Below are positions 20,781-52,124 of a stretch of DNA of 64,000 nt, one piece after another; the first letter of the stretch is position 1; each line of letters begins with the position of its first letter. This DNA is from Spirochaetae bacterium HGW-Spirochaetae-4 (GTDB taxonomy: Bacteria; Spirochaetota; Spirochaetia; Sphaerochaetales; Sphaerochaetaceae). The stretch spans positions 1 through 64,000 of the forward strand of contig PGXU01000011.1 of the NCBI GenBank assembly GCA_002839335.1. The letters are read 5' to 3'. Both the position numbers and the translations under genes were made by a program. The notes beneath the pieces were generated by a model that ran no database searches, was not told the DNA's origin, and was given only the letters and a program-made list of their open reading frames with translations.

Positions 20781-20811
20781 TATTAGCAGTCTCCTATAAT
20801 TATCAATTTAT

Positions 20812-20831
20812 GCTGAGCCCAACGAGTTGTA
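20812..20831. repeat. 20-bp direct repeat, right copy
   Basis: GCTGAGCCCAACGAGTTGTA, matching 17151-17170 except at one base. It lies 31 bases upstream of the GT4 start and 40 bases before the truncated small gene at 20871. Confidence 0.6.
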
Positions 20832-20870
20832 CCCCTTTTGTTAGACGTAAAACTAACGGAGGAAGGTATC

Positions 20871-20923
20871 ATGAAATTTACAGGACAGGAAATTGTTGAA
20901 GCGATAACACGGGTTATGAATTC
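20871..20923 (+). pseudogene. 5' fragment of an unidentified gene cut by an IS21-type end
   Basis: A good ribosome binding site (GGAGGAAGG) precedes an ATG and 18 plausible codons (MKFTGQEIVEAITRVMNS). The frame then runs into the inverted terminal repeat of the IS-like element at 20924 and stops at 21035. The gene is unrecognised and its 3' part was not found on the far side of the element. Confidence 0.35.
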
Positions 20924-21520
20924 TGTGCACATAGTGCACCGCCGTTCCGGGCTGAATTGCACCAGTATCCGCTGGGAAGTGCACCGGATGGAAACTTTAG
21001 TCTTTGAAACTGGGGAGTCTGTTTTCTCAAAATGAGATGGTTCATGATTTCTTGTTATTGTACCTGCGAATATCCTCCCCAGCGATGTTGAGGTAATAAT
21101 TATTGATGACGTATAGTCCCATGATGGACCGTCCCAACGCTTTCACATCAAGGATCAAAGACTATTCCTCTTATCGCGTTCCGTTTCGTTGTAGCACAGC
21201 ATCTCCTTGATGCAGTCGTTTTCATATTATTTCGGGGATTGGATACCCAATCCAAGCTTCGGTTGCCCTAGCGATACAGGTCAGCACGGTTCGTCTATTA
21301 CCCACCATATCGGATCCAATGAAATTGGTGCTACATTCTTTCGACTTTATCGTACGGCTGCACTGCTAGACAGTCATTTTTAACACTTTGTGTGAAGTAT
21401 TTACGCTGTATAGTGTGTTGCTTCGCTCTCTAAAAGGACACTTCGCTTAGAGATAATATTTAGTGGTGCACTTTGCTCCGTTTGCCGGTGCAGTTAGGTG
21501 CGGAACGGCGGTGCAGTTAT
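20924..21520. mobile_element. Gutted IS21-family-like element (ends only)
   Basis: Both ends carry three copies of a GGTGCA(C/G/A) box in inverted orientation. On the left, TGCACC boxes begin near 20934, 20957 and 20979. On the right, GGTGCA boxes begin near 21465, 21487 and 21510. The spacing (23 and 22 bases) is mirrored exactly, and CGGAACGGCGGTGCA is shared at the outermost boxes. Multiple terminal repeats of this kind are known from IS21-family elements. The roughly 475 bp between the ends is far too short for istA and istB, and neither is present, so the element cannot move by itself. Confidence 0.6.
21042..21161 (-). pseudogene. Coding remnant inside the gutted element
   Basis: A stop-to-stop frame of about 39 codons (LILDVKALGRSIMGLYVINN and on) without a start. 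The sequence further upstream on the same strand (about 21200-21370) keeps protein-like stretches in shifting frames. One of them (IGSDMVGNRRTVLTCIARAT) distantly resembles the NIVGTDNVLTACINAG segment of CapE. It may be a decayed sugar-nucleotide gene; I am not sure. Confidence 0.25.
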
Positions 21521-21641
21521 CGCGTAGAACTCAGTTATCGAAGAACACCATACAATTGGTCATTCGGCAAGGGCAATCGGGATGTCGTCATCACAATTAA
21601 GAGTTTACGTTGGTAGAGTTCGTTAGCATGGATATGGCTGC

Positions 21642-21941
21642 GTGAAACACAGGAAAAAGAAACAGTATCATTCTGGTAGTTTCAAAGTTCAGGTTAAAGA
21701 ATATTTAAGTGAACACAGACTCTCGTGCTATGCAACCGAAGTCCATTTCAATCTTACAAAGTCACTTGTTCAGGTGTGGGACCATGGATGCGTAGGAGAA
21801 GGTCTAGACTCAATATTTGAAGACCGTAGAGGGCGCAAAATGGATTTAAAACGTAGTGGCAGGCATCCCAAAATGACAAGGCAGGTAAGAGAGAATTATG
21901 ATACGCTTATAAATCAAGACAAAAAAATGCCTGAAGTTTAG
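21642..21941 (+). pseudogene. Truncated IS3-family OrfA
   Basis: 99 residues beginning MKHRKKKQYHSGSFKVQVKE, with an IS3/IS150-type helix-turn-helix (YLSEHRLSCYATEVHFNLTKSLVQVWDHG). Its last codons (Pro-Glu-Val-stop, CCTGAAGTTTAG) coincide with the start of TGAAGTTTAGGTGGAAC, the probable terminal repeat of a second IS3-like element in opposite orientation. So the OrfA was truncated by that insertion. The rest of OrfA and the start of OrfB are missing. Confidence 0.6.
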
Positions 21942-21950
21942 GTGGAACTC

Positions 21951-22262
21951 TCAAGCCACCTCCTCGTAGCGCTGGAACGATTCGTACCGTTGGTTAGGCG
22001 TCTCGTAATCCATTGCCGGATGATATCGGTCCCCGTTGTAGAACCGGTAATATTGATCCAATCCCTTCTTCAATGACTGGACATCCTGATATCCGAGGAG
22101 GTGGATGTCTTCGTACTTCACCGTCTTCCGCAGCCGCTTTGCGAAGATGTTATCGCGCAAGGCACCCTTTCCATCCATGCTCAGACGCGCATGATGATGC
22201 TCCAGTATCCCTATGAAGACAGTTCTGGTGAACTGGCTTCCGTAGTCGGTATTATCATAAAT
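21951..22262 (-). pseudogene. C-terminal fragment of an IS3-family OrfB transposase
   Basis: On the minus strand the frame reads NTDYGSQFTRTVFIGILEH, then MDGKGALRDNIFAKRLRKTVKYEDIHL, ending in FYNGDRYHPAMDYETPNQRY. This is the end of the DDE integrase domain, with the second catalytic Asp (TDYGSQF) retained. The N-terminal two thirds are missing. The fragment ends abruptly at a palindromic junction near 22261, where another OrfB fragment begins in the opposite direction. Confidence 0.75.
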
Positions 22263-22575
22263 TCATGATAGTACCAATCAGGGCAGCCAATAAACAGCGT
22301 CTCACTTCATGGCGCTTGTATCCCAATTGGGAGTTGTTCAAAGCATGAGTAAGCGGGGAAATCCATACGACAACGCGAGTATGGAATTCTTCAACAAAAC
22401 ATTGAAGCAGAAGTTGGAGTATGGAACAAACTTCCCCACTATTGCAGATGCGAAGCACGAAGTCTTTCAGTATATAGAAGTGTTCTACAACAGAAAGAGA
22501 ATTCATTCTGCATTGAGCTATTTGTCACCAACAGAGTTCTTACAGGTTACTAAAAATACTAAACTTGATGTCTAG
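22261..22575 (+). pseudogene. C-terminal fragment of a second IS3-family OrfB, with nonsense mutation
   Basis: From the junction the plus strand reads IHDSTNQGSQ, a stop (TAA, where Tyr is usual), then TASHFMALVSQLGVVQSMSKRGNPYDN to FYNRKRIHSALSYLSPTEF. It is an IS150-type OrfB C-terminus in which the catalytic Asp of the HSDxGSQY motif has become Asn, so it is inactive. It probably belongs with the OrfA at 21642. A terminal repeat candidate (TGTGAACCCCAAAAGTTTGA, minus strand) lies at about 22598-22617. Confidence 0.75.
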
Positions 22576-22684
22576 TTTTTCTTGACCAGTCCAATGATGT
22601 CAAACTTTTGGGGTTCACATCACTTGTAAGGCTAGCATAATTCAACGCAGAACGAAGTCGCATTACAAACGCAGAGTTCACTAA

Positions 22685-23776
22685 TTATTGCCAGAAAAAA
22701 TAATAATTCGAAATACCATTATTGTCAAAATAACTATTTCTAAAAAGCATTACAAACATTGCTACAACAAGAACTGCTGAGATCAATTTTTTCATTTTCA
22801 TTTTCGCTATTACTTCTGGTAGGGAAATAATTAAAAATACACTGTAATAATAAACTAGTCTATGCACAATACCGAATTTTTGACCACTTAAAGAAAAGGT
22901 AATCGCTATTAACAACAAAGCTGCATTCTCACAATATTTGTTATAATCAACAACTGATATAACCTTTGTTTTAAAAAATATCAGATAAAGATAAAATATT
23001 TCGATACAAATGAAAATCAAATCTTTGATATTAAATCCACCCTCATTTAAAAAATAAGGGTTATTAACATAACCATAATATTTCGGAACAGCTGAAACAA
23101 TCATATCTAATATATAATCTTTCGCAAGAAAAAAAGAGGCACAAAAAATAAAAATTATCAGGAGGCCTTTTCTCTTATTTTTTATAATTCCTAATAATGG
23201 AATCAATAGTAAAGATATTGCAGTAATATGTGTTGAAATTGAAATAAGAATAAGTAGCAAAGCAGATTTTTTTTTCCCCTTTCTAATTAATGTTAAAGCA
23301 TTAATACCAAAGCCAATCGCCAACCATTCACGCATCAAATTCATGGATTGAATAAAAAACATTCCTAAAAATATGACTGTACTTAAAAAAACATTTTCCG
23401 AATTATTGAAAATGAATTTTGAAAATAGTAATGCAATTAATACTCCATTGATGATCAAAAATAATTGGTAATTACTTGAAAATTGTAAAGATATCCATGC
23501 AATAATATTGATTGTTATTTCCAGACTGTCTCTGAATACTGCATTATTTTTAACCTCATAAAAATAGTGAAAAATATATGCGTATGTATCCTTTCCAACA
23601 TCAATACCTCTTAACCCAATAAGCATAGAAATAAACGTGAAGACTACAAATAAATAAGCTTTTTTAATATTCCGTTTTGATACCAAAATTCTTCCGTATA
23701 AATCATTGTTTTTTTTAAAAACAAGAAGCGGTGATAATATAATCGATATAAAAAACAAAATATAATAATATCTCAT
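22685..23776 (-). CDS. wzy: Repeat-unit polymerase, EpsG/Wzy-like
   Basis: 363-aa integral membrane protein with about ten hydrophobic segments. IGLRGIDVGKDTYAY in the first periplasmic loop (Arg, then Gly-x-Asp-Thr-x-x-Tyr) and MNLMREWLAIGFGI are the conserved stretches of EpsG-family polymerases. It would join lipid-linked repeat units at the outer face of the inner membrane. No clear ribosome binding site precedes the ATG. Very AT-rich. It follows rmlC directly. Confidence 0.82.
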   Translation of the reverse strand: MRYYYILFFISIILSPLLVFKKNNDLYGRILVSKRNIKKAYLFVVFTFISMLIGLRGIDVGKDTYAYIFHYFYEVKNNAVFRDSLEITINIIAWISLQFSSNYQLFLIINGVLIALLFSKFIFNNSENVFLSTVIFLGMFFIQSMNLMREWLAIGFGINALTLIRKGKKKSALLLILISISTHITAISLLLIPLLGIIKNKRKGLLIIFIFCASFFLAKDYILDMIVSAVPKYYGYVNNPYFLNEGGFNIKDLIFICIEIFYLYLIFFKTKVISVVDYNKYCENAALLLIAITFSLSGQKFGIVHRLVYYYSVFLIISLPEVIAKMKMKKLISAVLVVAMFVMLFRNSYFDNNGISNYYFFWQ

Positions 23777-32447: not shown

Positions 32448-33473
32448 ATGAAAAGGAAAATCATGATTGTATGTGTGATTGCCTTTCTTGTTTTCCCGAC
32501 ATTGCTGTTCGCAGCAGGGAAAGTCGAAAGTCCCGCCAGTGCAGAAAAGACATTCAACATCGTATTCACCACAGCATCTGTAACCGAGGAAGCCCACTCC
32601 AAGGTATTGGTCGAGTTTGTGAAACCACGCCTGGAAGAACTGACCGGTGGTAGGGTGACACTGGAAGTACACGATTCGAGCTCGTTGTTCAGCCAAGACG
32701 ACGAACTGCCGGCGACCATCCGCGGAAACGCGACGATGTGTTACACGGACGGAACCTGGCTTGCGACCTACATGCCATCGACGAGCATGTTCAGCGCAGG
32801 GTACATCTTCAAGGACCTGGACCACATGAACAAAGTGCTGAACGGACCGATCGGAGAGGAACTGTTCGAGAGCGTGGCGCAGAAAGTCGGTGTACGACCG
32901 CTGGCCTCCTATTACATCGGATCGCGCACGATCAACCTGAAGAACCCGAAACCCGCAATGACCCCGGCCGACCTGAAGGGCGTGAAGCTGCGCATGCCGA
33001 ACTCCGAGGCATGGCTCATGCTGGGCAAGGCATTGGGAGCTAATCCGACACCCGTGGCATTCTCCGAACTGTACACCGCCCTGGCAACAGGAACAGTCGA
33101 CGGACAAGACAACCCGCTGACAGCGACCGAAGAAGGCAAGTTCTACGAAGTCACCAAATCGATCGCCTTGACCAACCACCAGATCGGTACCGTATGGCCG
33201 GCGATCAACGAAGCGTTCTGGCAGTCGCTCGGACCCGAGTTGCAGCCCCTGGTCAAGCAAGCCTTCGTCGAGGGAATCGAATACAACAACAACATCGTCA
33301 AAGGCAAGGAAGCCAGCCTCGTGGCGTTCTTCCGCTCGCAGGGCCTGACCGTTGCGAATCCCGATGTATCGGCATTCAAGAAGCAGGTCAACGACTACTA
33401 TCTGCAGCAGAAGGATTTCATCAAGGATTGGGACATGGACCTCTTCGACCGCATCAAGAAGATGGCCGAGTAG
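32448..33473 (+). CDS. TRAP transporter solute-binding protein (DctP family)
   Basis: 341 aa, exported. Signal peptide about residues 1-23 (KRKIMIVCVIAFLVFPTLLFA), then AAGKVES, the spirochaete-like junction. The mature protein has DctP landmarks: EELTGGRVTLEVHDSSSL, the central KGVKLRMPNSEAW with the Arg that usually binds the substrate carboxylate, GANPTPVAFSELYTALATGTVDGQDNP, and YEVTKSIALTNHQI. It captures an acidic solute in the periplasm for the DctQM membrane proteins. GGAGA precedes the ATG. First gene of the operon running to 39117; later genes suggest a 2-keto-3-deoxy or ulosonic sugar acid as substrate, which is an inference. Confidence 0.93.
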   Translation: MKRKIMIVCVIAFLVFPTLLFAAGKVESPASAEKTFNIVFTTASVTEEAHSKVLVEFVKPRLEELTGGRVTLEVHDSSSLFSQDDELPATIRGNATMCYTDGTWLATYMPSTSMFSAGYIFKDLDHMNKVLNGPIGEELFESVAQKVGVRPLASYYIGSRTINLKNPKPAMTPADLKGVKLRMPNSEAWLMLGKALGANPTPVAFSELYTALATGTVDGQDNPLTATEEGKFYEVTKSIALTNHQIGTVWPAINEAFWQSLGPELQPLVKQAFVEGIEYNNNIVKGKEASLVAFFRSQGLTVANPDVSAFKKQVNDYYLQQKDFIKDWDMDLFDRIKKMAE

Positions 33474-33516
33474 CACGTACTATAATGTAGGAACATGAAC
33501 TTGACTTGGAGCGGAT

Positions 33517-33590
33517 CGGACAGATGGCAAGACCAAGGAAGCGAAGATATTACTATATCTGAGCTGACGAGAACGTAGTCCATCTGTTCG
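33517..33590 (+). promoter_or_regulatory. Intercistronic RNA hairpin between dctP and dctQ
   Basis: CGGACAGATGG (33517-33527) pairs with CCATCTGTTCG (33580-33590) over 11 positions with one G-U, enclosing a second hairpin AGATAT TACT ATATCT (33545-33560). The 158-bp gap is unusual in a compact operon. Such structures often protect the 5' message, so more binding protein than permease is made. Confidence 0.5.
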
Positions 33591-33631
33591 ATAGGCCCAA
33601 GAAAAGACATGTTCAAGGGGAGGAGATCACA

Positions 33632-34147
33632 GTGTCCAAGAAGCTTGCCTCGGCGATACATATCATGGAAACGGCAATCGGCATCTACGTGCCGGTCACC
33701 GCGTTCCTGTTCATGTTCATCGCATTCTGCCTGCAGATCTTCTCCCGCTACTTCCTCAACCACCAGTTCGAATGGACCTACGAGTATACCGTCATAGGAT
33801 TCATCTGGACCGTCGCATTCGGCGCGTGTGCGGCGAGCAAACGGCGCGAGCACGTCTCGTTCAGCCTCATCTACGACCGCTTCGGCCAACGGGGCCAGGC
33901 GATCATGAAACTGATGGGCAACACGATCATCATCATCGCCTTCTGCATCATGTTCTACCCCGCGTTCGACTTCATCCGTTTCATGGGAATCAAGACCACC
34001 CCGGTGCTCAAGATCCCCATCAGCTACGTATACGCACCGTTTCTCGCATTCCTCACCTTCTCGATCCTCTACCTTATCAAGGACTGCCTGATCGCCATCC
34101 AGACACTCCTCTCGCTCAAGCAACATAAACCGGGAGGGCTGCAGTAA
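33632..34147 (+). CDS. TRAP transporter small permease (DctQ family)
   Basis: 171 aa with four hydrophobic helices, typical of DctQ. FCLQIFSRYFLNHQFEWTYEYT is the conserved region after helix 1; FGACAASKRREHVSFSLIYD follows helix 2. It starts at a GTG behind GGGGAGGAG. Its stop overlaps the dctM start by one base (TAATG), so the two membrane subunits are co-translated. It partners DctM in the inner membrane. Confidence 0.9.
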   Translation: MSKKLASAIHIMETAIGIYVPVTAFLFMFIAFCLQIFSRYFLNHQFEWTYEYTVIGFIWTVAFGACAASKRREHVSFSLIYDRFGQRGQAIMKLMGNTIIIIAFCIMFYPAFDFIRFMGIKTTPVLKIPISYVYAPFLAFLTFSILYLIKDCLIAIQTLLSLKQHKPGGLQ

Positions 34148-35433
34148 TGGACCTATCGTTGTGGATCCCCATAATCATGCTGGTGCTGACCTTCCTGCTC
34201 AACATTCCCGTCACCTACGGCATGTTGGCCGCAGGCGTCTACTACCTGCTCTACACCGGAGGCGATATCGGACTCATAGTCGGACAGACGATGGGAACGC
34301 TGTACACCGGGTATGTGCTCATGGCCGTACCGCTGTTCATCTTCACCGCAAACGTGATGAACTCGGGCAAGGTCACCGACGCCATGTTCACCTTCTCCAA
34401 AGCCCTCATCGGTAGACGCCGTGGGGCCCTGGCGTATGTGAACGTGATCGTATCGCTGATCTTCAGCGGTATGACCGGCTCGGCCATCGCCGACGCCGCG
34501 GGAATCGGCAAGATGGAGATCGAGTCGATGGTCAAGGACGGCTACGACGCGCCGTTCAGCTGTGCCATCACCGCCGCCTCGGCAACCATAGGCCCCATCT
34601 TTCCTCCGAGTATTCCCTTCGTCATCTACGCCATGCTCTCGGGAACCTCTGTCGGAGCGCTGTTCCTCGGCGGCATGGTCCCCGGTATCATGCTGGCACT
34701 GGTACTGAGCATCTACGTCTGGTACATCTCGCGCAAACGCGATTATCCCAGGGGAGAATCGTTCACCTTCATCGAATTCATCAAATTCTCCATGAAGGCA
34801 TTCCCCGCGCTGCTCACCCCCGTGATCCTGCTGGTTGGCATCTACACCGGTGTCATGACACCTACCGAAGCCGGTGCCGTGGCAGCCCTCTATGCCCTTA
34901 TCGTAGCCCTGTTCGCCTACCGGGTCCTCGGCTTCAAAGCCCTGCTTGTCACCCTCAAGGACACCGTGATCGGAGCCGGGCAGATAACGATCCTCACCGG
35001 AGCCGCCGCCGTGTTCACCTACATCGTGGCCAAGGAGAATATCCCAGCCATGATCTCCCAGTACATCCTGGGAATCACCGACAACAAGTACGTGTTGTTG
35101 CTGGTCATAAACACCCTGTTCCTGATTCTCGGCATGTTCTTGGACACCGCAGTGCTGCAGTTCGTGTTCCTTCCCATGGTCATACCCATAGTCAGGATGT
35201 TGGGGATCGACATGGTCCACTTCGGTGTGCTGATCTGCCTGAACATGATGATCGGCCTGTCCACCCCACCCTTCGGCTTCCTGCTGTTCATAACAGCCGG
35301 AATCTCGAACACCCCGTTCGTGAAGATAACCAAGGAGATACTGCCCATGATCGTGGTGCTGCTGGCACTGCTCATGGTCATTACCTTCGTTCCCGATATC
35401 GTCCTATTCATCCCAAACAGGATGATGGGATAG
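34147..35433 (+). CDS. TRAP transporter large permease (DctM family)
   Basis: 428 aa, about 12 hydrophobic segments. Family stretches: YGMLAAGVYYLLYTGGDIGL, GSAIADAAGIGKMEIESM, SATIGPIFPPSIPFVIYAML, TPTEAGAVAALYALIV and NMMIGLSTPPFGFLLF. It is the sodium-coupled transport channel of the system. An open frame of 355 codons on the opposite strand is a shadow of its GC-rich codon use. Confidence 0.93.
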   Translation: MDLSLWIPIIMLVLTFLLNIPVTYGMLAAGVYYLLYTGGDIGLIVGQTMGTLYTGYVLMAVPLFIFTANVMNSGKVTDAMFTFSKALIGRRRGALAYVNVIVSLIFSGMTGSAIADAAGIGKMEIESMVKDGYDAPFSCAITAASATIGPIFPPSIPFVIYAMLSGTSVGALFLGGMVPGIMLALVLSIYVWYISRKRDYPRGESFTFIEFIKFSMKAFPALLTPVILLVGIYTGVMTPTEAGAVAALYALIVALFAYRVLGFKALLVTLKDTVIGAGQITILTGAAAVFTYIVAKENIPAMISQYILGITDNKYVLLLVINTLFLILGMFLDTAVLQFVFLPMVIPIVRMLGIDMVHFGVLICLNMMIGLSTPPFGFLLFITAGISNTPFVKITKEILPMIVVLLALLMVITFVPDIVLFIPNRMMG

Positions 35434-35468
35434 ACCCGATCAACCAATTCAATTAGGAGGCTGCACCC

Positions 35469-36689
35469 ATGAAAGACCTTGCACACCATATCGAGACCTA
35501 CACCGCCATGCTCGGCGCCGAATCGCTTCAATTCCTGGAAAAGGCCGCCGACGCGATCGTCGAGGCGAAGAGCCGCGGAGGAAAGGTCGTCGTGGCCACC
35601 GGAAGCGGCCCCAATCTGCATGAGGGAGTCACCACACTGATCGCCCACCTCATGGACAAGGGAATCGTCGACGGGGTGACCACCAGTTCGGCCGTCGTGG
35701 CCCACGAGATGGGCGGCGTGCTGGAGCGAGTCAAACGCATCGTCGTCTCCAAGAGCGAACTCGCCGGCCTGCTCGATCCGGCCCGGCTTCCCCGCGGCGA
35801 CGTCTTCGAGCTGACGATCATGGATGACGAGGAGTGGGCCCTGCTGCGCTCCGAGATGATCATCGATGAGCACGTCGTGGCGATCTGCAAATCCTGCGAA
35901 GGCCAAGTAATCATCAAGGCGGCCGGAAACATGGCCTACCCCATGGGACTGCGCACCGAAACCGTATCGAATACCGTACTCGAGATCGCCCGCGCCTGCG
36001 GCAAGCCCTTCGAGGAGGTCGCGGGCTGGGGATGCGACAGGCGCACCATGCTCGGTATCGGAGCGAAGAAACACCTGCCGGTGTTGGTGAGCATTCCCCA
36101 ACTGGTGGGAGGCGGATATGTCGGCATCGCCGTCGGCGACAGCATCTCCATAGCCGAACGCAGTGCGCGTATCGCCGACATGCTCGGCTCGGCCGACGTG
36201 ATCATCGAATCGGCGGTCGCCTTGACCCAGGAGATCCACGACGGACCGTTCGAGACCTATACCGGGCACGGTATCTGGGCCGATTGGAACGGACTGCGCA
36301 CCTACAGCCTCAAGGGCAAGACACTCATCCGCTTCGACCTCGACGAGAACCTGAAGAAGGCCTGGGACATGGACAAGCACGGTGGCGATATCCAACGCGC
36401 TATCGACGAGGGCCTGCCCAAGACCAAGATGTCGAAGATTCCCTTCCGCATGGAAATGTCGGCATTCAGCAGACTCGAATCGAGCCTGCCGGTTGTCGGG
36501 GATATCGGGGTCATCTGGCCGATCCTCGCGTACAAGGTCGCCAAGCGCCTGGGAATCGAACTCGAGTTCCTCTCCCACCCGCAGCAGACCGAAGAGGGCA
36601 AGGCTCTGCGCGACCATATTGTAGCCGAGATCAAACCGATGGATCTCCAGGCGATCCGCCGCACTTCACGCATCACCGACTTCAGCTGA
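35469..36689 (+). CDS. Unrecognised conserved-looking protein, 406 aa
   Basis: I cannot assign this protein. It is soluble, with no signal peptide or membrane helix, and has an excellent AGGAGG site. The N-terminal part (about 38-70) has a Rossmann-like strand-loop, GGKVVVATGSGPNLHEGVTT, then VDGVTTSSAVVAHEMGGVLE. The middle (about 195-265) has GWGCDRRTM, LVSIPQLVGGGYVGIAVGDS and ESAVALTQEIHDGPFETYTG. The layout recalls deoxyhypusine synthase-like enzymes only faintly. Position between the TRAP genes and kdsB-like genes suggests an NAD-dependent step on the imported sugar acid. Confidence 0.75.
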   Translation: MKDLAHHIETYTAMLGAESLQFLEKAADAIVEAKSRGGKVVVATGSGPNLHEGVTTLIAHLMDKGIVDGVTTSSAVVAHEMGGVLERVKRIVVSKSELAGLLDPARLPRGDVFELTIMDDEEWALLRSEMIIDEHVVAICKSCEGQVIIKAAGNMAYPMGLRTETVSNTVLEIARACGKPFEEVAGWGCDRRTMLGIGAKKHLPVLVSIPQLVGGGYVGIAVGDSISIAERSARIADMLGSADVIIESAVALTQEIHDGPFETYTGHGIWADWNGLRTYSLKGKTLIRFDLDENLKKAWDMDKHGGDIQRAIDEGLPKTKMSKIPFRMEMSAFSRLESSLPVVGDIGVIWPILAYKVAKRLGIELEFLSHPQQTEEGKALRDHIVAEIKPMDLQAIRRTSRITDFS

Positions 36690-36704
36690 GAGGAGAACAC
36701 ACCC

Positions 36705-37448
36705 ATGACTACGATCGGTATCATTCCCGCACGCTACGGCTCATCGAGACTGCCCGGAAAACCCTTGAAGATGATCTGCGGCAAACCCATGATCCAACAT
36801 GTATACGAACAGGCCATGAAGGCCACCACCCTCGATTCGGTCGTGGTGGCCACCGACGATGAACGCATTGTCGCTGCGGTCAAGGCTTTCGGTGGAGAGG
36901 CGTTCCTCACCTCGCTGGACCACAAGACCGGCAGCGACAGGATCGCCGAGGTCGCCGCCCATATGGATTGCGACATCGTGGTGAATATCCAAGGCGACGA
37001 ACCGCTGATCGAACCCGAGATCATCGACGAGTTCGTCCAGGAGATGCTTAAGGATCCGAAACTGGTCATGGTCACCGGGTGCCACGAAATCCACGACGAG
37101 CAGGCCCTGCAGAACCCGAACGTCGTGAAGGTCGTCTCGAACCTCCAAGGCTTCGCCCTGCTCTTCTCCCGATCGCTGATCCCCTATCCCCGCTACACCC
37201 AGCGTTTCGCCGCCTACGAGCATATTGGAATCTACGTGTACACGAAGGATTTCCTCATGACCTATATCACCCTCGAGGAGACACCGCTGGCAGCCACCGA
37301 ATCGTTGGAACAGATGCGCGTGCTCGAGCATGGGTACGCTATCAAGATTGTAAAGACCCGTTTCCCCTACGACGCGCTCAGCGTCGATACCCAGGAAGAC
37401 CTGGAGAACGTGGAACGGATCATGCTGGCAAAGCAAGAGGCCCACTGA
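36705..37448 (+). CDS. CMP-Kdo synthetase-like cytidylyltransferase (copy 1)
   Basis: 247 aa, KdsB family. GIIPARYGSSRLPGKPL is the CTP-binding signature; DHKTGSDRIAEVA, VNIQGDEPLIEPE and TESLEQMRVLEHGY are diagnostic. KdsB activates 3-deoxy-D-manno-octulosonate (or 8-amino-Kdo in some bacteria) as the CMP-sugar. A second family member lies 1 kb downstream in the same operon. Finding two inside a TRAP transport operon with an aldolase is unusual. The stop overlaps the next start (TGATG). Confidence 0.85.
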   Translation: MTTIGIIPARYGSSRLPGKPLKMICGKPMIQHVYEQAMKATTLDSVVVATDDERIVAAVKAFGGEAFLTSLDHKTGSDRIAEVAAHMDCDIVVNIQGDEPLIEPEIIDEFVQEMLKDPKLVMVTGCHEIHDEQALQNPNVVKVVSNLQGFALLFSRSLIPYPRYTQRFAAYEHIGIYVYTKDFLMTYITLEETPLAATESLEQMRVLEHGYAIKIVKTRFPYDALSVDTQEDLENVERIMLAKQEAH

Positions 37449-38380
37449 TGGACAAGACACTTCCCAATGGCATCCATGTGACCATGATCACCCCCTTCAC
37501 CGACGACAACAGGATCGACTACGCAGGCGTCGAAGGGTTGCTGCAGTGGTACGCCGACCACCAGGTCGACGGCATATTCGCCCTCTGCCAATCCAGCGAG
37601 ATATTCTTCCTCTCCTTCGAGGAGAAGCTTGAGCTGCTGCGTTTCATTGTGAAGAACAAGCCAAAAGGCATGTCCTTGATCGCCTCGGGCCACACCGCCG
37701 ACGATATCAAGGGCCAACAGGTCCAGGCCGCGGCCATTGCCCGGGAAGGGATCGACGCCTATGTGTTCATCTCCAACCGGTTCGCCGCAGAGGGCGAGGA
37801 TGACCGGACGTTCCTGCGCAACGCGAAGTTGGTGGCCGATTCGATCGCCGGCTTCCCCTTGGGAATCTACGAGTGCCCCTTCCCCTACAAGCGGCTGCTG
37901 TCACCCCAGGTGCTCACTTCGTTGTTGGATATCGGGGACTTCCAGTTCCTCAAGGACACCAGCTGTTCTGTCGAGCAGATGCAGGCGAAACTTGTCGCAA
38001 TGAAAGGAACGAAGTTCAAGCTGTTCAACGCCAATTCGGCCACGTTCCTGGAGAGCCTGCTCATTGGAGCCCATGGGTTCTCCGGAGTCATGGCGAACTT
38101 CCACCCCGAGTTGTACCAGGCCCTGTACAAAGTCTTCCGCACCGACATGGATAAGGCCCAGAGAATCCAGGACGTGATCGGCTGCCTCTCGCTTGTCGAG
38201 AACCAGATCTATCCGACCAACGCGAAATATTACCTCGGGACCATGGAGCGCCTCGGGTTCGGCTACCATACCCGGTCCAAGGATCCCAAGGATTTCACCC
38301 GCAATAGGCAGCTCGAGATCGAGCAGTTGTGGGCATTGACTCAAAACTGGAAAAACCGAGAGAATATGAAGCACCTATGA
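37448..38380 (+). CDS. DapA/NanA-family class I aldolase
   Basis: 310 aa from the ATG at 37448, overlapping the kdsB-like stop. It is a TIM-barrel pyruvate-dependent aldolase: HVTMITPFTDDNRIDYAGV opens the barrel, GIYECPFPYK contains the position of the catalytic Tyr, and FQFLKDTSCS carries the Schiff-base Lys. The usual GTTGE loop is replaced by CQSSE, so the substrate is probably not that of DHDPS. In this context it may cleave or form a 2-keto-3-deoxy sugar acid. The reading frame continues upstream but lies inside the previous gene. Confidence 0.85.
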   Translation: MDKTLPNGIHVTMITPFTDDNRIDYAGVEGLLQWYADHQVDGIFALCQSSEIFFLSFEEKLELLRFIVKNKPKGMSLIASGHTADDIKGQQVQAAAIAREGIDAYVFISNRFAAEGEDDRTFLRNAKLVADSIAGFPLGIYECPFPYKRLLSPQVLTSLLDIGDFQFLKDTSCSVEQMQAKLVAMKGTKFKLFNANSATFLESLLIGAHGFSGVMANFHPELYQALYKVFRTDMDKAQRIQDVIGCLSLVENQIYPTNAKYYLGTMERLGFGYHTRSKDPKDFTRNRQLEIEQLWALTQNWKNRENMKHL

Positions 38381-39117
38381 CTAAGAAGAAATTTATCCTG
38401 GGGGTGATTCCGGTACGCTACAACTCGACCCGATTGCCCGGAAAGCCTTTGTGCGACATCTGTGGCAAACCCATGGTCCAGCGCGTGTATGAGATCGCCT
38501 CGCTGTCCACGCTGTTGGACGACCTCGTGGTCGCCACCGATGACCAGCGCGTCTTTGATGCGGTCACCGCCTTCGGGGGCAAGGTCGTCATGACCTCGAG
38601 CGACCACATGACCGGTAGCGACCGAATCGCCGAGGTTGTCGGTTCGTACCATTGCGACTATGTGCTGAATATCCAAGGGGACGAGCCGCTGTTGATTCCC
38701 GAGATCATCGACGAAGTGATCATCGCGCTTGTCACCGACAAGAAGCAGGTCATGACCACCAGCTGCTACCGTATTACCGACGAATCGCGCATCGACAATC
38801 CCAGTGCGGTCAAGGTCGTCGTCGATATCGAGGGCAATGCCATGCTGTTCTCCCGCGCACCGATTCCCTACCCCCGCAACCGCGAGTACCATGCCATGCA
38901 CGAGCATATCGGGGTGTTCGGCTTCCGCAAGGATTTCCTGCTCAAGTATGTCACCCTTCCCAATACACCCCTCTCGCTCACCGAGTCCCTCGAGCAGCTC
39001 AAGGCGATGGAGAACGGCTACCGCATCAAGGTCGTGCAGACGAAGTACAACTACCAGCCCCCCAGCGTCAAGACACGCGAGGACCTAGAACAGGTGGTAA
39101 GGATACTGTCCTCCTAA
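38377..39117 (+). CDS. CMP-Kdo synthetase-like cytidylyltransferase (copy 2)
   Basis: 246 aa from the ATG at 38377, overlapping the aldolase stop (ATGA). GVIPVRYNSTRLPGKPLCDI, SDHMTGSDRIAEVV, LNIQGDEPLLIPE and PYPRNREYHAMHEHIGVFGF show the KdsB family. It is clearly related to copy 1 but not a recent duplicate. It may have a different sugar acid as substrate, or form a heteromer with copy 1. Last gene of the operon; no classical terminator follows, only GGCG/CGCC around 39127. Confidence 0.85.
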   Translation: MTKKKFILGVIPVRYNSTRLPGKPLCDICGKPMVQRVYEIASLSTLLDDLVVATDDQRVFDAVTAFGGKVVMTSSDHMTGSDRIAEVVGSYHCDYVLNIQGDEPLLIPEIIDEVIIALVTDKKQVMTTSCYRITDESRIDNPSAVKVVVDIEGNAMLFSRAPIPYPRNREYHAMHEHIGVFGFRKDFLLKYVTLPNTPLSLTESLEQLKAMENGYRIKVVQTKYNYQPPSVKTREDLEQVVRILSS

Positions 39118-39164: not shown

Positions 39165-40400
39165 TTACTCGAAATTCAGCTGATTAAAGTATTGCGCATT
39201 CATCATGAGACACGCCCCATACGAGCAATCGCTCGGCGAAGTCGTGCCCAAGATGACGACAGGGGCCGTGGGAAAATCCTCAGGCAGGTACTCGGCGATA
39301 TACAGCTCCAACAACCGCTTGAATTGCACGTCGGTACTGTTGAACACTCCCGATAGGACAATAGTCGCAATGCCTTCGATCTTGATCACATTCGCCAAAG
39401 CCACAGCCAACATGCGGATCGCCTGGTCTATCGCTACCCGCGCCGCCTTGTCGCCCTTATAGCTTTCGGCCAGCACGGCATGGAACAGATCGTCGTCCTG
39501 TTCCAGCGCGGTGTTCCACGTCGACCCCAGCTGGTGCGCAGCATCGCGGTACGCTTGCAGCAAGCCATTTCCCGACACATACGATTGCAGGCACCCCTGC
39601 TTACCGCACGTGCACGCACTGCCGGCTACATCCATGGTCATATGGCCGAAATAGGTCCTGTGCGGAAGATCCTCGGCGGCATCGCACGGACCGCGGTACA
39701 TCGATAGGCTCAATTCCCGTTCGAACAGGATGAAGATGTATCGCTGCAGCGACGAGATATGGTAGCTGCGCCGTTCGAGGAAGTTGAGCACGATGCGGTC
39801 AGCAATAGTACTCGTCGGAACCTTCAATGCGGCTTCCAACTCGTCGCTGAGCAGTTGGGGATCGATGTCCGTCCCTTCGGGATAAGTTACACAGATTTTC
39901 ACCAGGCTGGAGAGTTCCAGACGGGTCTTCTTCAAAATCTCCCCCACCAACGGTACAAGGCGGTGGGCGATCGACCGGTGCTTGTCAGCTTGATTCTCTC
40001 CCGCCGCTTGGGCTGGAATCGCCTCGGTGGCGTGGAATATCTTCCCGTCCCGGATGTTCGTGATGGTGATATCCACTTCATCACCGTTCAGGTGGAGCGC
40101 AAGCACATACCGCACGATACCGCAAATGCCAAACAGTACCGCTTGGCGGCCTCCAGTTGTCGGAGCGTACGCGATCTTCTCGACATGCGAATCCTTCTCC
40201 AGGTGCTTGATGATTCCCAGTACCGTCGGATAGGTGAGCGCAGACTCCTGTACCAGCGTGTCCAACGATACGGGTTCCAGCTCCTTCACGAGCAGCAGGA
40301 TACGTTTCGTGTTTCCCGAGCGCACGAGCTTGTTGTTGCGCCGGGTAGCGGGCAGTGGCTTTTGCTTTTCCTGTTTTGGCGTTTCATTGGGACTTGCCAT
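39165..40400 (-). CDS. ROK-family transcriptional regulator
   Basis: 411 aa. An N-terminal winged helix (about 25-85: NTKRILLLVKELEPVSLDTLVQESALTYPTVLGIIKHLEKD) is followed by a ROK domain with the zinc-binding CTCGKQGCLQSY. The kinase catalytic motifs are weak, as in ROK repressors such as NagC/XylR. It is convergent with the TRAP operon, and it could control it or the sensor gene that starts 108 bases away on the other strand. The ATG at 40400 has no ribosome binding site, but TATACT lies only 6 bases before it (minus strand), so translation could be leaderless. Confidence 0.87.
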   Translation of the reverse strand: MASPNETPKQEKQKPLPATRRNNKLVRSGNTKRILLLVKELEPVSLDTLVQESALTYPTVLGIIKHLEKDSHVEKIAYAPTTGGRQAVLFGICGIVRYVLALHLNGDEVDITITNIRDGKIFHATEAIPAQAAGENQADKHRSIAHRLVPLVGEILKKTRLELSSLVKICVTYPEGTDIDPQLLSDELEAALKVPTSTIADRIVLNFLERRSYHISSLQRYIFILFERELSLSMYRGPCDAAEDLPHRTYFGHMTMDVAGSACTCGKQGCLQSYVSGNGLLQAYRDAAHQLGSTWNTALEQDDDLFHAVLAESYKGDKAARVAIDQAIRMLAVALANVIKIEGIATIVLSGVFNSTDVQFKRLLELYIAEYLPEDFPTAPVVILGTTSPSDCSYGACLMMNAQYFNQLNFE

Positions 40401-40507
40401 GGGTGTAGTATACTGCAAAGTGGCAAAAACTGGTATAGAAACACGAGGTGTGCTACAGTTACGCACAGGATGGGATCGTTCACACGCGAAATTATGGAGC
40501 AAATCGT

Positions 40508-45769: not shown

Positions 45770-46963
45770 TCAGCTTGCAACCCAGCGAATCTCTCCGTTG
45801 ATAATTACGTGTGATAGTTCAATGTTATCATTGAAGATGCAGATATCAGCGTCTTTGCTTAAATCGAGAGATCCTTTTGTAGCGTCAATACCCAAAACCC
45901 TGGCTGGATTAATCGTCATCATACTGACAGCCTCCTCGATACGCACCCCGACCAATTTGTACATTGTGCGGACGCATCTATCGGAGGTACAAACGCTGCT
46001 GGCAAAAGACAAGTGGTCTGGGGTGAATGCAACACCATCTTCGATAACTGAATCCTGCCCGTTTTTGAGACTGCCCAACAACACGTGTTGGCCGTCCGCC
46101 ATCCCTGCTCCCCGTGACGAATCGGTGATCAATGAAATTTTATTCATGGGTTTACATTTCAGAATCAACTTGAGCAATTCAATCGGTAAATGTTTCCCAT
46201 CTGCTATGATTTCCACAGTCATATCGTCAATCAGATAGGCACTCTCCACTACACCAAGATATCTGAATGCGCTCTTACGGTGGAGAGTGGACATTCCCGA
46301 ATAGAGGTGGGTGATATGGGTATATCCTCGCTCGAATGCTTCAGCAACCTGTTGGTACACCGCGTCGGAGTGTCCTACAGCCGCCAAAATATGACGACTT
46401 TTTAGTTCTGCCACAAGTGCATACTCCTCATCCAATTCGGGAGCAACCGACATCCTAACGATATCGTCGGAATGATTGAGGATTTCCAAATAATGCTTCT
46501 TTGTAGGGACACGTAAATATCTCGGGTCCTGAGCTCCTCGTTGGGACGATGCGAAGTAAGGGCCTTCCAAATGGACTCCCAAAAGGTTTGGCCCATCAGT
46601 CAACATTTCCTTGGCATGGCGGTAAACATCAAGGAAATTAAAAAGATCTTCATCGGTCGAAGTCAACGTTGTCGGGACAATTGAAGTAGTACCATGCCTC
46701 ATATGGGTTTTCGCTGCTTCAATTATTGCTGTCTCGGTACCGTCCATGAAATCGTGACCACCGCCTCCATGCACATGCATATCGATGAAACCGGGACTAA
46801 CATAATTACCCTTGGCATCCAATATTTGGCAATTGCCGGGAATCTCTTCGCCTTTGAAGAATGAAACAATCTTCCCACCTTCCATGACCAGACCAATGTC
46901 AGAAATAGTTCTGAAAGGAGTCACCAGTTTTCCACCAACTATCGCGGTTCGTTTCATATCCAA
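45770..46963 (-). CDS. nagA: N-acetylglucosamine-6-phosphate deacetylase
   Basis: 397-aa amidohydrolase that gives glucosamine-6-phosphate and acetate. The metal-site motif is DMHVHGGGGHDFMDG; GVHLEGPYF carries the metal-binding Glu; HITHLYSGMSTLHRK stands for the usual HLFNAM; DSSRGAGMADGQH holds the catalytic Asp region. GGAGG precedes the ATG. It is the last gene of the minus-strand amino-sugar operon, 20 bases after nagB, and converges with the toxin-antitoxin islet. Confidence 0.94.
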   Translation of the reverse strand: MDMKRTAIVGGKLVTPFRTISDIGLVMEGGKIVSFFKGEEIPGNCQILDAKGNYVSPGFIDMHVHGGGGHDFMDGTETAIIEAAKTHMRHGTTSIVPTTLTSTDEDLFNFLDVYRHAKEMLTDGPNLLGVHLEGPYFASSQRGAQDPRYLRVPTKKHYLEILNHSDDIVRMSVAPELDEEYALVAELKSRHILAAVGHSDAVYQQVAEAFERGYTHITHLYSGMSTLHRKSAFRYLGVVESAYLIDDMTVEIIADGKHLPIELLKLILKCKPMNKISLITDSSRGAGMADGQHVLLGSLKNGQDSVIEDGVAFTPDHLSFASSVCTSDRCVRTMYKLVGVRIEEAVSMMTINPARVLGIDATKGSLDLSKDADICIFNDNIELSHVIINGEIRWVAS

Positions 46964-46983
46964 CCTCCAGACGGGTAACAGTA

Positions 46984-47715
46984 TTATGCAAGCAACGAAG
47001 CGGCATCCCTATCCAACACGATGACACAGTCAGGATGACTGCGTAGGATTGTTGCCGGAACCATCGGGGTTATTTCAGAACTCTCCAATGTATTTTTTAT
47101 CGCTTTCGCCTTGCGGATGCCAGGAACAGAACAGATAATCTTATTTGCCTGAAGAATCTGATGGACTGTCATCGAAATGGCTTTCTCAGGAACCTCTGCC
47201 AACGAGTGGAACCATCCTTCCGAAACTTGTTGCTGTTTGCAATCTTCATCCAAATCCACCACGATATAAGCATCATCGATAAGAAAATCGGCCGGGGGAT
47301 CATTGAAGGCAATATGGCTGTTTTCACCAATTCCAATGAATGCGACATCGATTGGTTTGGTTCTCATTGAGCGGGTAAGTTGCTCGATGTGCTTCTCGAT
47401 ATCATTCTCTCCATCGACATAGTGAACCTCTTTGGGATGGACTATATCGACGAATCGCTCCTTCAGATATTTCCGAAAACTGGCGACATGTGTTATCGGG
47501 AGATTACAATATTCATCCAGATGGTACATTGAAACTTTTTCCCATGCAACATCCATCATCACCAGATGACGGAGCATCTCGAATTGAGAGGCTCCGGTAG
47601 CAAGGATAATCCGGGCCTCACCATTCTTCAAAATCGCAGCCCTGATAGCTTCTGCTCCAACAGTAGCAGCATATTTTCCCATTTCAACTTCATTCTCTTT
47701 CGTAAAAACTTCCAT
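46984..47715 (-). CDS. nagB: Glucosamine-6-phosphate deaminase
   Basis: 243 aa. Converts glucosamine-6-phosphate to fructose-6-phosphate and ammonia. LATGASQFEMLRHL is the phosphate-binding loop (usually GSTP), SMYHLDEYCNLP carries the active-site Asp-Glu, and GIGENSHIAFNDPPADF the catalytic loop. Slightly shorter than E. coli NagB, lacking part of its allosteric C-terminus. With nagA it funnels GlcNAc-6-phosphate into glycolysis. No sugar kinase or PTS gene is in the operon, so phosphorylation must come from elsewhere. Confidence 0.92.
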   Translation of the reverse strand: MEVFTKENEVEMGKYAATVGAEAIRAAILKNGEARIILATGASQFEMLRHLVMMDVAWEKVSMYHLDEYCNLPITHVASFRKYLKERFVDIVHPKEVHYVDGENDIEKHIEQLTRSMRTKPIDVAFIGIGENSHIAFNDPPADFLIDDAYIVVDLDEDCKQQQVSEGWFHSLAEVPEKAISMTVHQILQANKIICSVPGIRKAKAIKNTLESSEITPMVPATILRSHPDCVIVLDRDAASLLA

Positions 47716-47748
47716 GTTAAACCTATCTTTATATTAAAATTTTTATTA

Positions 47749-49017
47749 TCACAAATTCCCGTTCTCATCGAACTCCAATTCCTTAGGGCCCCCAAGAATC
47801 TCTATGTCGGGATTCCTGCATGCATCGTCGAGCATGCTTTCCGATATTTCGATATCGTAGGCTTCGAGCGTGTTGTGCATCCGAACCAGGCGAATATTTT
47901 CCCTATCAACATCCACACTACCACGAATGCAGGCGGCTATGGCGTAATAGTCGTTTTTGAGAATCATTGGGATGCGCACTCCGTCGAAAATCGTCGCAGT
48001 GATCGCATTCACATAACTCTCTTCCAGAGCACACTTGTCGAACATTCGCCTGGTACAGACATCAGCCCAACCGGCACCGAGCATACCTCCATGGCTCTCA
48101 GCCGATATATCAAGAATGGCCACCTTTTGGATACTCTCCTCGGCGGTTACATAAGGAGTGCCGAAACGTGTCGTTATATAGGGATCCATCCCGTCACCGC
48201 TGATATTCTTGCCTATCTCATCAAGAACCAAAACAGCAACATCTTTGAACATAAGTCTAGGCAATAAAGTGTAAGCCTTCTGTAATAGAACAGGCTCACG
48301 AGAGGGTATGTCATTAGCTGGGATGCATTCAATTAAATACGTTTTGTGATAGGCATTTTCAATGATACCAACACCAAAAAGGATATTACAATTCTCCAAA
48401 ATGACATTCGCGAACATGGGGATATATTTGGCGAGATATTTAGCCCCCGCGTTGTGGCAGACAGCTGCGCCATGCTGTTTCCCCAACCCGATGGTCATCA
48501 TTTTCATAAGTCCGCTCTCGTATGGACCTGAAAACCCTGAATGTGGCCTGATCTTACCGACAACTATAATACCTTGTGCGGCGTTCGCCAATGCATCGAT
48601 ATGAACAGAGTGCCCTTCAGGTGAATTTCCGACAGATACAGTCTCCATTGAGGAGAGAATTGGACAACCGACACGCTCCTCGGTTATACCATAGGAATTT
48701 AGAATGTGCTTCTGTCCCTCCGCAGTCCCACCACCATGGCTTCCCATGGCTGGTATTACGAAGGGTTCGGCACCCTGCCGTTGCAAAAGACGGACAATCG
48801 TTCTGAGAATAATATCGAGATTGTGTATAGGACGACTACTGGCGGTAATAGCGATTCGCATCCCTGGCCTAATTGTTTCCAAGATTCTCGACTGCCCCAT
48901 CTGCTCTTCTACAACTGGAACCGGATCTTCAATCCGATTATCCTCGAAATGCTGACGAACTCTTACCATCCGAGGCAGTTTCACTTGTCCTATCGCTTCG
49001 TACAGACTCTCTCCCAT
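47749..49017 (-). CDS. LarA-family (DUF2088) racemase/epimerase homologue
   Basis: 422 aa, cytoplasmic. GMRIAITASSRPIHNLD, AMGSHGGGTAEGQ, VVGKIRPHSGFSGPYESG, LMKMMTIGLGKQHGA and VCHNAG line up with the LarA fold, whose members use a nickel-pincer cofactor to racemise lactate or epimerise other alpha-hydroxyacids. Several cofactor-site His and Lys positions look present. In this operon the substrate could be a sugar acid arriving through the TRAP system. No larB, larC or larE is in the window. Confidence 0.8.
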   Translation of the reverse strand: MGESLYEAIGQVKLPRMVRVRQHFEDNRIEDPVPVVEEQMGQSRILETIRPGMRIAITASSRPIHNLDIILRTIVRLLQRQGAEPFVIPAMGSHGGGTAEGQKHILNSYGITEERVGCPILSSMETVSVGNSPEGHSVHIDALANAAQGIIVVGKIRPHSGFSGPYESGLMKMMTIGLGKQHGAAVCHNAGAKYLAKYIPMFANVILENCNILFGVGIIENAYHKTYLIECIPANDIPSREPVLLQKAYTLLPRLMFKDVAVLVLDEIGKNISGDGMDPYITTRFGTPYVTAEESIQKVAILDISAESHGGMLGAGWADVCTRRMFDKCALEESYVNAITATIFDGVRIPMILKNDYYAIAACIRGSVDVDRENIRLVRMHNTLEAYDIEISESMLDDACRNPDIEILGGPKELEFDENGNL

Positions 49018-49106
49018 GACTCATCCCTTTACCACACGAATTACAATCGGAGGGGACGATACCCCCCTCCTACAGTTGTTGGAGCATCCCATTATCAATT
49101 TGACAA

Positions 49107-50186
49107 TCAGTAGGAAAGCTCCATAATCTTTCCATTTTCCACACTTTCGTGGGCCTTCTGGCACATTATTGTAGACACCAATGCTTCGTCTCCGGTTGGA
49201 TATTCAGCTTTTAGATCCTTCAAACCAATACCGTCAGTTATCATTTTGTTTACTAGCCGGAGGAAGTAGAGCATCGATTCAACTGTGTATCCAACTGGTA
49301 TCGAACCAGCTACGGGATCGTCCACCTGCAGTTGTCCATAGGGATTAATCACCAGGCTTGAACCACTGCTCTCATAAGCGGCCACAACTCCTCTATCCTG
49401 ACTATCGACCTCTTGCATGCCGTCGGTTCCTACAATTCGAATCTGTTGGTTGACGACTGAGCAGAAACTGTTGGGGATTATCCATGAAGAGTCCACAGAA
49501 ATAGTCGCTCCGCTGGGGAACTCGAATTTTGCTTGGATGGAATCGTAGCTGTCAATCCCCAAGGAGATCAGTTTCTTCTTATGTCCGGTTGCGTAGACCT
49601 TGTGGGGTTTTTCTCCGAGCAACCAGTAGATGAGGTCGAAAAAATGGATACCAAGGAACCAAGCGGGAGAACTATTATGAGCCCAGGTCTTGAACCATTC
49701 GGTTGGTACAAGAATCTTGTCTTCCATACAAACATATCCATATTCGACTTGTCCCAGTTTCCCTTCTTTTATCGCCCTTCTCAACTGTATGTGTCCCGGA
49801 TCGAAACGCTTGTGAAAATCTACGTAAAGCATCACATTGTTGGCTCTTGCACAAGCAATCATCCTCTTGGCGGCTTCAATGTCGGTTGAAAGTGGTTTCT
49901 GCACGAGAATATGTATTCCTTTATTCGCAGCATCAAGAACACAAGCCTCGTGTAAAAAATCTGGGGTTACGATTGCGACCGCATCGAGCTGTTCTTTATC
50001 GAACATCTCGTTATAGTCCAAATAGCCCCGTATTCCGTAAGTTTTCGCGACTTTATCCAAGGCTTCCTGTCTCACATCGGCGACTGCGACGAAATCGATT
50101 TCTGATCGTTTATGGGCACCATAATAGGCATTGATCAAGACACTGCCGTATAAACCGGCACCAACCACACCAACTTTCATTTTCAT
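49107..50186 (-). CDS. Gfo/Idh/MocA-family oxidoreductase
   Basis: 359 aa. The N-terminal Rossmann domain has KVGVVGAGLYGSVLINAYYG, the second strand ends in VAVADVR, and VLVQKPLSTDIEAAKRMI holds the Glu/Gln-Lys-Pro motif with catalytic Lys. The C-terminal domain has HKRFDPGHIQLRRAIKEGKLG and SPAWFLGIHFFDLIYWLLG. NAD-dependent oxidation of a hydroxyl on the imported sugar is likely. GGAGA precedes the ATG. Confidence 0.88.
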   Translation of the reverse strand: MKMKVGVVGAGLYGSVLINAYYGAHKRSEIDFVAVADVRQEALDKVAKTYGIRGYLDYNEMFDKEQLDAVAIVTPDFLHEACVLDAANKGIHILVQKPLSTDIEAAKRMIACARANNVMLYVDFHKRFDPGHIQLRRAIKEGKLGQVEYGYVCMEDKILVPTEWFKTWAHNSSPAWFLGIHFFDLIYWLLGEKPHKVYATGHKKKLISLGIDSYDSIQAKFEFPSGATISVDSSWIIPNSFCSVVNQQIRIVGTDGMQEVDSQDRGVVAAYESSGSSLVINPYGQLQVDDPVAGSIPVGYTVESMLYFLRLVNKMITDGIGLKDLKAEYPTGDEALVSTIMCQKAHESVENGKIMELSY

Positions 50187-50235
50187 ATTCTCTCCTTTTG
50201 TACTCTACCTACAAGTATGTTTATATTTTAAAATC

Positions 50236-51522: not shown

Positions 51523-51528
51523 ATACGC

Positions 51529-52038
51529 TCACTCCTTTACCGTGTCGACAGGTTGCATGGACTCAGTCTTCTTAAAGAGAAGCTTGACAGCCACAACAAG
51601 ATGGACCCCTCGTCGGATGAAAGCCAGAAAAAAACCAACGCACATTGAGGCGGCGACGACACTCATGGAGACTCCGAAGGCGGGTGATTGCAAAATCTTT
51701 TGAAACGAGAAGAATTTAACTGACCAGAAGAACATGACAGCGAACATGTAACTACCAAGACTCTTTTCTATTACGTGTAGCAGCAAATTGGGTTTCCCTT
51801 TAAGAAATTTTACAAAGACATCGACTGCGAAATGATCTTGGTACTTCTCTCCCATTGCTATACAAATATATACACACCAGACATACGAGAATCTGGCGAT
51901 TTCCTCGGTATAAAGAAGCGGTCTTTTCAACACAATCCTGAAGAATATCTGGGCAGCTACGGCAACACACATGATAGCGAAAAACGCAGGGGCTACATAA
52001 TCTTCGAATGAGTTGAGAATCGCCAATAGCTTCTTCAC
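51529..52038 (-). CDS. TRAP transporter small permease (DctQ family)
   Basis: 169 aa with four hydrophobic helices. VAAQIFFRIVLKRPLLYTEEIARFSYVW after helix 1 is the conserved DctQ segment with the acidic pair. GEKYQDHFAVDVFVKF follows helix 2. It lies between dctP and dctM and forms the membrane complex with DctM. Confidence 0.9.
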   Translation of the reverse strand: MKKLLAILNSFEDYVAPAFFAIMCVAVAAQIFFRIVLKRPLLYTEEIARFSYVWCVYICIAMGEKYQDHFAVDVFVKFLKGKPNLLLHVIEKSLGSYMFAVMFFWSVKFFSFQKILQSPAFGVSMSVVAASMCVGFFLAFIRRGVHLVVAVKLLFKKTESMQPVDTVKE

Positions 52039-52124
52039 AAAAGACTCCTTGATTATCTTGTGGTTATATCCTGAACAAGTGGCCGAGCATTTGATACAAC
52101 GGCCACTTGTCGGAACTTTGTTGC

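Follow-up and report, generated by a model that had tools for sequence, protein, structure and literature searches.

A TRAP Transporter Operon with Two KdsB-Like Proteins and a New Family with a Predicted Deoxyhypusine Synthase Fold in a Spirochaete without Detected Kdo Biosynthesis Genes

Organization of the operon

In a stretch of 64,000 nucleotides (nt) from Spirochaetae bacterium HGW-Spirochaetae-4 (positions 1 to 64,000 of the forward strand of contig PGXU01000011.1, assembly GCA_002839335.1), hereafter the window, genes for a tripartite ATP-independent periplasmic (TRAP) transporter are joined to genes for an aldolase, a protein that we call UNK, and two relatives of KdsB, the cytidine monophosphate (CMP)-3-deoxy-d-manno-octulosonic acid (Kdo) synthetase. 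The gene order on the plus strand is DctP-DctQ-DctM-UNK-KdsB1-aldolase-KdsB2, and the intergenic gaps (158, −1, 35, 15, −1, and −4 nt, in that order) indicate a single operon. The TRAP solute-binding protein DctP (32448..33473; PF03480, 4.4e-64) is followed by the small permease DctQ, with a GTG start (33632..34147; PF04290, 3.8e-26), and the large permease DctM (34147..35433; PF06808, 5.4e-103; TIGR00786). Next come UNK, which is 406 aa long and matches no Pfam entry above the cut-off (35469..36689); KdsB1 (36705..37448); a class I aldolase of the dihydrodipicolinate synthase/N-acetylneuraminate lyase (DHDPS/NAL) superfamily (37448..38380); and the paralogue KdsB2 (38377..39117). Converging on the 3′ end is a gene for a ROK-family transcriptional regulator (39165..40463, minus strand; PF00480, 57.8 bits), which also adjoins relatives of KdsB2 at three further loci (L030, L100, and L107) and is probably the local regulator of the operon. 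Every gene in the preliminary description of this locus is present, at exactly the coordinates given there.

The identical gene order is found in two relatives (L010 and L030, both Spirochaetota contigs and one of them labeled Sphaerochaeta), which suggests that the host is Sphaerochaeta-like. The ratio of nonsynonymous to synonymous substitution rates (dN/dS), calculated for DctP, UNK, KdsB1, the aldolase, and KdsB2, lies between 0.03 and 0.23; taken together, these observations argue that the arrangement is not due to chance. An Oscillospiraceae locus (L011) has TRAP-UNK-KdsB1-aldolase in common with the window operon.

The KdsB-like proteins and the aldolase

KdsB1 and KdsB2 are 57% identical, and both exceed the TIGR00466 equivalog cut-off of 155.2 bits (223.1 and 204.5 bits, respectively), a profile on which CMP-N-acetylneuraminic acid (CMP-Neu5Ac) synthetases score far lower. 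In KdsB enzymes, the magnesium ion termed Mg-A is liganded by two aspartates, D95 and D219 of Aquifex aeolicus (PMC3149649). KdsB1 has aspartate at both positions, giving a complete metal site, and from its sequence we infer that it is a CMP-Kdo synthetase-type enzyme that would couple an acid to CMP. In KdsB2, the second aspartate is replaced by lysine, in the window as well as in L010, L030, and L107. At the equivalent position of a CMP-Neu5Ac synthetase, the D211A substitution lowers kcat 15,000-fold (PMC2901514), and ordinary CTP transferase activity is improbable for KdsB2. Its dN/dS of 0.05 to 0.06 nonetheless denotes strong purifying selection. A congener (G224) has retained KdsB2 and the ROK gene beside a truncated aldolase remnant (L107, 1387-3719); KdsB1 and the TRAP genes are absent from that stretch, and UNK was not found in the G224 genome. 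This KdsB2 is 85% identical to that of the window, keeps the lysine, and has a dN/dS of 0.05, part of which conservation may predate the loss of the remaining operon genes. KdsB2 is a constrained paralogue that probably has a modified or regulatory role and a function of its own. The suggestion in the preliminary description that the two KdsB-like genes might serve two different acids finds no support and is weakened by this lysine.

The aldolase scores well above the PF00701 cut-off (81.7 versus 22.1 bits; 5.1e-23) and aligns with the class I enzymes in its YECP motif and in the Schiff-base lysine of FLKD, but it falls far below the N-acetylneuraminate lyase equivalog cut-off of TIGR00683 (52.3 versus 382 bits). 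Both NanA and human NPL cleave Kdo (PMC13220900).

The Kdo pathway in the host genome

The host genome (3.6 Mb, 99.86% complete) was surveyed with profile searches, on which the absences given here rest. It encodes two CTP_transf_3 proteins, KdsB1 and KdsB2, both in the operon, and no third was recovered elsewhere; a housekeeping kdsB outside the operon, the existence of which had been raised in the preliminary description, was accordingly not found. Nor was kdsA: the best match to the KdsA profile, in a 643-aa frame, scores 114.7 bits, where the cut-off is 314, and is therefore probably a 3-deoxy-d-arabino-heptulosonate 7-phosphate (DAHP) synthase-type protein. WaaA, the GT30 family, Capsule_synth/KpsC-KpsS, and the ELM1 family were likewise not found, and the genome does not display the combination of KdsA and WaaA that marks the classical Kdo/lipopolysaccharide (LPS) pathway.

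UNK, a new family with a predicted deoxyhypusine synthase fold

A sequence search of the PDB with UNK gave no significant match. Its weak sequence similarities, to GSU2086, TIGR00300, and the deoxyhypusine synthase families, all lie within residues 20 to 84, which probably form an NAD site; on the deoxyhypusine synthase profile PF01916, it scores 14.1 bits, below the cut-off of 27. The structure model is confident (predicted local distance difference test [pLDDT] score of 88), and over 212 to 264 residues it matches ArgZ/AgrE (Z score of 17.0) and deoxyhypusine synthases (Z scores of 16 to 17), placing the main domain in the deoxyhypusine synthase fold superfamily. UNK represents a new family, for which this model predicts the fold of NAD-dependent deoxyhypusine synthase/ornithine cyclodeaminase, and we infer that it uses NAD. 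About 100 positions are invariant across 43 members from several phyla, among them those of the motif E-SAV-L-QEIHDGP-E-YTGHG. One scan of genome contigs returned 299 relatives, of which the best 80 were kept; members of the UNK family are encoded in Clostridia, Chloroflexi, Synergistota, Bacteroidota, and Spirochaetota, with only 4 of 393 genomes of the host's own phylum carrying one, and none was found in the viral contigs or plasmids searched. No relevant paper emerged when the literature was searched for deoxyhypusine synthase in combination with KdsB or Kdo. The preliminary description listed this protein as unknown but missed its weight, as it is both the most novel part of the operon and the one most consistently linked to KdsB.

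Gene neighborhoods of UNK across phyla

We compared 83 UNK loci; because many of them are closely related and the scan retained its best 80 matches, the counts are not independent. A KdsB gene lies near UNK in 50 of them, within 400 nt and on the same strand in 48 cases and with one gene in between in the other 2, and the pair is represented in Bacillota, Chloroflexota, Synergistota, Chlorobiota, KSB1, and Spirochaetota. The 33 loci without KdsB are nearly all from Bacteroidota, along with two from Synergistota at contig ends. In one set of Bacteroidales loci (L014-L033), UNK is situated between genes for a glutaminyl-tRNA synthetase-like protein and an energy-coupling factor (ECF) transporter component-like protein.

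KdsA above the cut-off is missing in 21 of 40 UNK carrier genomes, a few of these 21 being metagenome-assembled genomes of Bacteroidota that may be incomplete. In 16 of the others, WaaA was not found, while it was present in four LPS-type controls; the other KdsA-less carriers tested also had no GT30, KpsC/S, or ELM1, save for weak Capsule_synth matches in one. The neighbors of UNK in KdsA-less genomes include DHDPS aldolases, TRAP or ATP-binding cassette (ABC) transport genes, PfkB, Amidohydro_2, BNR_2 sialidase-like proteins, and YhcH/DUF386. DHDPS-family aldolases of several subfamilies lie near the UNK-KdsB pair at about 12 loci, YhcH/DUF386 proteins, the family of the sialic acid anomerase NanQ, at two, and an ABC solute-binding protein at one. 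In gut Clostridia, a conserved 478-aa, apparently membrane protein without a Pfam match, possibly a transporter, is encoded 3′ of UNK-KdsB and BNR_2 (L067, 13097-14533).

A different context is seen in Synergistota, where UNK-KdsB is found in an LPS operon near kdsA and waaA and is followed by an ELM1-type gene. Five of these genomes encode another KdsB besides the UNK-linked one, and in a phylogenetic tree the UNK-linked proteins cluster with KdsBs from Clostridia and Spirochaetota, separately from their counterparts in the respective genomes. Some of the UNK-linked KdsBs of Synergistota, together with that of L068, have asparagine at the second Mg-A aspartate (L043, L036, L059, L068, and relatives), and in several Synergistota genomes with this type another KdsB elsewhere has aspartate. 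A seeming KdsB-ELM1 fusion at L034 was rejected, as the continuous frame appears to have arisen by a frameshift between adjacent genes.

The transporter and its likely ligand

The closest PDB sequence to DctP is 4pf6 (E value of 1.4e-63), by title a TRAP periplasmic solute-binding protein of Roseobacter denitrificans (RD1_0742), and the next matches belong to the sialic acid-binding SiaP family (1e-46 to 1e-41), an order of similarity that fits an ulosonic acid (SiaPQM-type) TRAP transporter. Foldseek with the DctP model (pLDDT of 46) also ranked 4pf6 first, at 32% identity. Because DctP is nearest to 4pf6 and then to SiaP, uptake of a Kdo-type acid is plausible, and so, by homology, is the binding of a Kdo-like ulosonic acid by DctP itself. 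Literature text searches for 4pf6 or for Kdo as a TRAP ligand found nothing.

Proposed function and its alternatives

Taking these findings together, we consider it fairly probable that the operon scavenges a Kdo-type 3-deoxy-2-ulosonic acid in a bacterium without Kdo biosynthesis genes. The TRAP transporter would import the acid, and the DHDPS/NAL-type aldolase would cleave it to pyruvate and an aldose, which would be d-arabinose if the acid is Kdo. KdsB1, with its complete metal site, would couple the acid to CMP, while KdsB2 would act in a modified or regulatory capacity. As the UNK gene stays beside KdsB across phyla, UNK would act on the same metabolite as KdsB. The parsimonious reading is that the aldolase represents a breakdown branch and KdsB1 an activation branch to which UNK is tied; UNK and KdsB are best read as a two-enzyme module. 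As to chemistry, we think it most likely, though with low certainty, that UNK uses NAD to oxidize a ring hydroxyl transiently, either on the ulosonic acid itself or on the CMP ester. Enzymes of the YjhC/Ruminococcus gnavus type use NAD by such transient oxidation, and by analogy with them we favor a subsequent elimination or epimerization. That the module constitutes a previously unknown pathway, in which a CMP ester is made and then undergoes an NAD-dependent transformation by a deoxyhypusine synthase-fold enzyme, for breakdown or remodeling, in bacteria without detected Kdo or LPS synthesis genes, is a speculative proposal that we think will more probably prove wrong than right. The uptake and use of a Kdo-like acid envisaged in the preliminary description is hence upheld, by the neighbors of DctP, the complete site of KdsB1, and the cleavage of Kdo by NanA-type aldolases; the proposed reuse for the cell surface is not, as no known Kdo transferase was found, though a surface-polysaccharide cluster adjoins.

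Several observations weigh against the scavenging of Kdo. The assignment of Kdo as the ligand of the 4pf6 structure is presumptive, the identity of DctP to 4pf6 is only about 32%, and the DctP model is poor and unfit for pocket analysis. The Bacteroidales UNK genes have no adjoining KdsB, and the placement of UNK-KdsB within an LPS/Kdo synthesis operon of Synergistota indicates a biosynthetic use there.

Two alternatives would refine rather than displace the proposed scavenging. It is possible, if on balance unlikely, that scavenged Kdo activated by KdsB1 is put on a polysaccharide by an unrecognized glycosyltransferase, much as sialic acid is used by Haemophilus, and that the aldolase serves only to dispose of the excess. 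The GT2, GT4, EpsG, and initiating transferase genes divergently upstream (~1 to 31 kb) and the position of the Synergistota pair between waaA and an ELM1-type gene speak for such decoration; against it, the host has no GT30, KpsC/S, or ELM1, the other KdsA-less carriers resemble it save the one with weak Capsule_synth matches, and genes for transport and breakdown predominate around the pair in carriers without LPS. The second alternative, which we regard as doubtful, is that activation with CMP is a catabolic step in its own right, with UNK catalyzing an NAD-dependent oxidation/C2 elimination of the CMP-ulosonate ahead of the aldolase. In its favor, UNK, KdsB, and an aldolase are found together repeatedly in Spirochaetota, Bacillota, and Chloroflexota that lack KdsA, accompanied by TRAP or ABC transport genes, a PfkB kinase, and Amidohydro_2, and known Kdo transferase types were not found there, apart from the weak matches in one genome. 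Further, enzymes are known that return anhydro- and dehydro-sialic acids to sialic acid, namely, YjhC (PMC7315737) and an R. gnavus enzyme (PMC7535918). Such a route is at odds with the occurrence of the same pair in Synergistota LPS operons. Also to its detriment, we know of no precedent for CTP-dependent sugar-acid breakdown. A further alternative, to which we also give little credence, is that the acid is not Kdo but Kdn (3-deoxy-d-glycero-d-galacto-nonulosonic acid), sialic acid, 3-deoxy-lyxo-heptulosaric acid, or a Kdo epimer interconverted by UNK. It would accommodate the identity of only about a third between DctP and 4pf6 and the fact that the UNK-linked KdsBs form a lineage distinct from the remaining KdsBs of those genomes, but both KdsB1 and KdsB2 exceed the Kdo-specific TIGR00466 cut-off, far above CMP-Neu5Ac synthetases. 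Finally, the idea of a standard C4-dicarboxylate TRAP operon whose other genes are mere passengers has only the family name of DctP in its favor and is highly improbable. We rejected this specificity because the sequence neighbors of DctP with known ligands are sialic acid binders; the gene order is also kept in relatives and, in part, in L011.

Genomic surroundings

Divergent from the operon is a surface-polysaccharide cluster (896-31000, minus strand) with nucleotide-sugar enzymes, GT2/GT4 glycosyltransferases, EpsG, a flippase, and an initiating transferase, inside which about 1.9 kb (20780-22685) holds no open reading frame of at least 100 aa. On the other side is a second TRAP operon (45770-53234, minus strand) with Lar_N (nickel-pincer racemase-like), a NagB-like isomerase, an amidohydrolase, and a GFO/IDH/MocA dehydrogenase, which would be another sugar-acid pathway, and a fusion of a PfkB kinase to a NADAR domain (54682-56082, minus strand).

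Significance and comparison with known systems

The presence of Kdo is taken to signal a Gram-negative outer membrane. Here, CMP-Kdo synthetase-like enzymes occur in genomes without detected genes for Kdo synthesis or transfer and are tied to a family absent from Pfam. If our proposal is true, it would show a way in which anaerobes use the Kdo of other cells or of plants and would give a widespread unannotated family a function, and it would caution that kdsB alone is no proof of LPS.

The operon resembles the Haemophilus-type siaPQM/nanA/siaB system in combining TRAP uptake of an ulosonic acid, a NAL-type aldolase, and a CMP-acid synthetase, all predicted here from the genes; it differs in having two KdsBs in place of NeuA/SiaB, in adding UNK, and in lacking NanE/NanK. 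KdsB1 is like the known KdsB enzymes (TIGR00466; those of A. aeolicus and Escherichia coli KpsU/KdsB) in sequence and metal-site residues, whereas the window KdsBs occur without KdsA or WaaA and KdsB2 has lysine at the position of A. aeolicus D219. UNK shares its predicted fold (Z score of ~17) and a weak similarity in residues 20 to 82 with deoxyhypusine synthase, ArgZ-AgrE, GSU2086, and TIGR00300, but it is only 10 to 16% identical over the structural match, lies far below all of their family cut-offs, has its own motif, ESAVALTQEIHDGPFExYTGHG, and is linked to KdsB. As a putative NAD enzyme recycling ulosonic acid derivatives, UNK would by analogy recall the NanOx/YjhC anhydro-sialic acid oxidoreductases, from which it differs in fold family, theirs being GFO/IDH/MocA.

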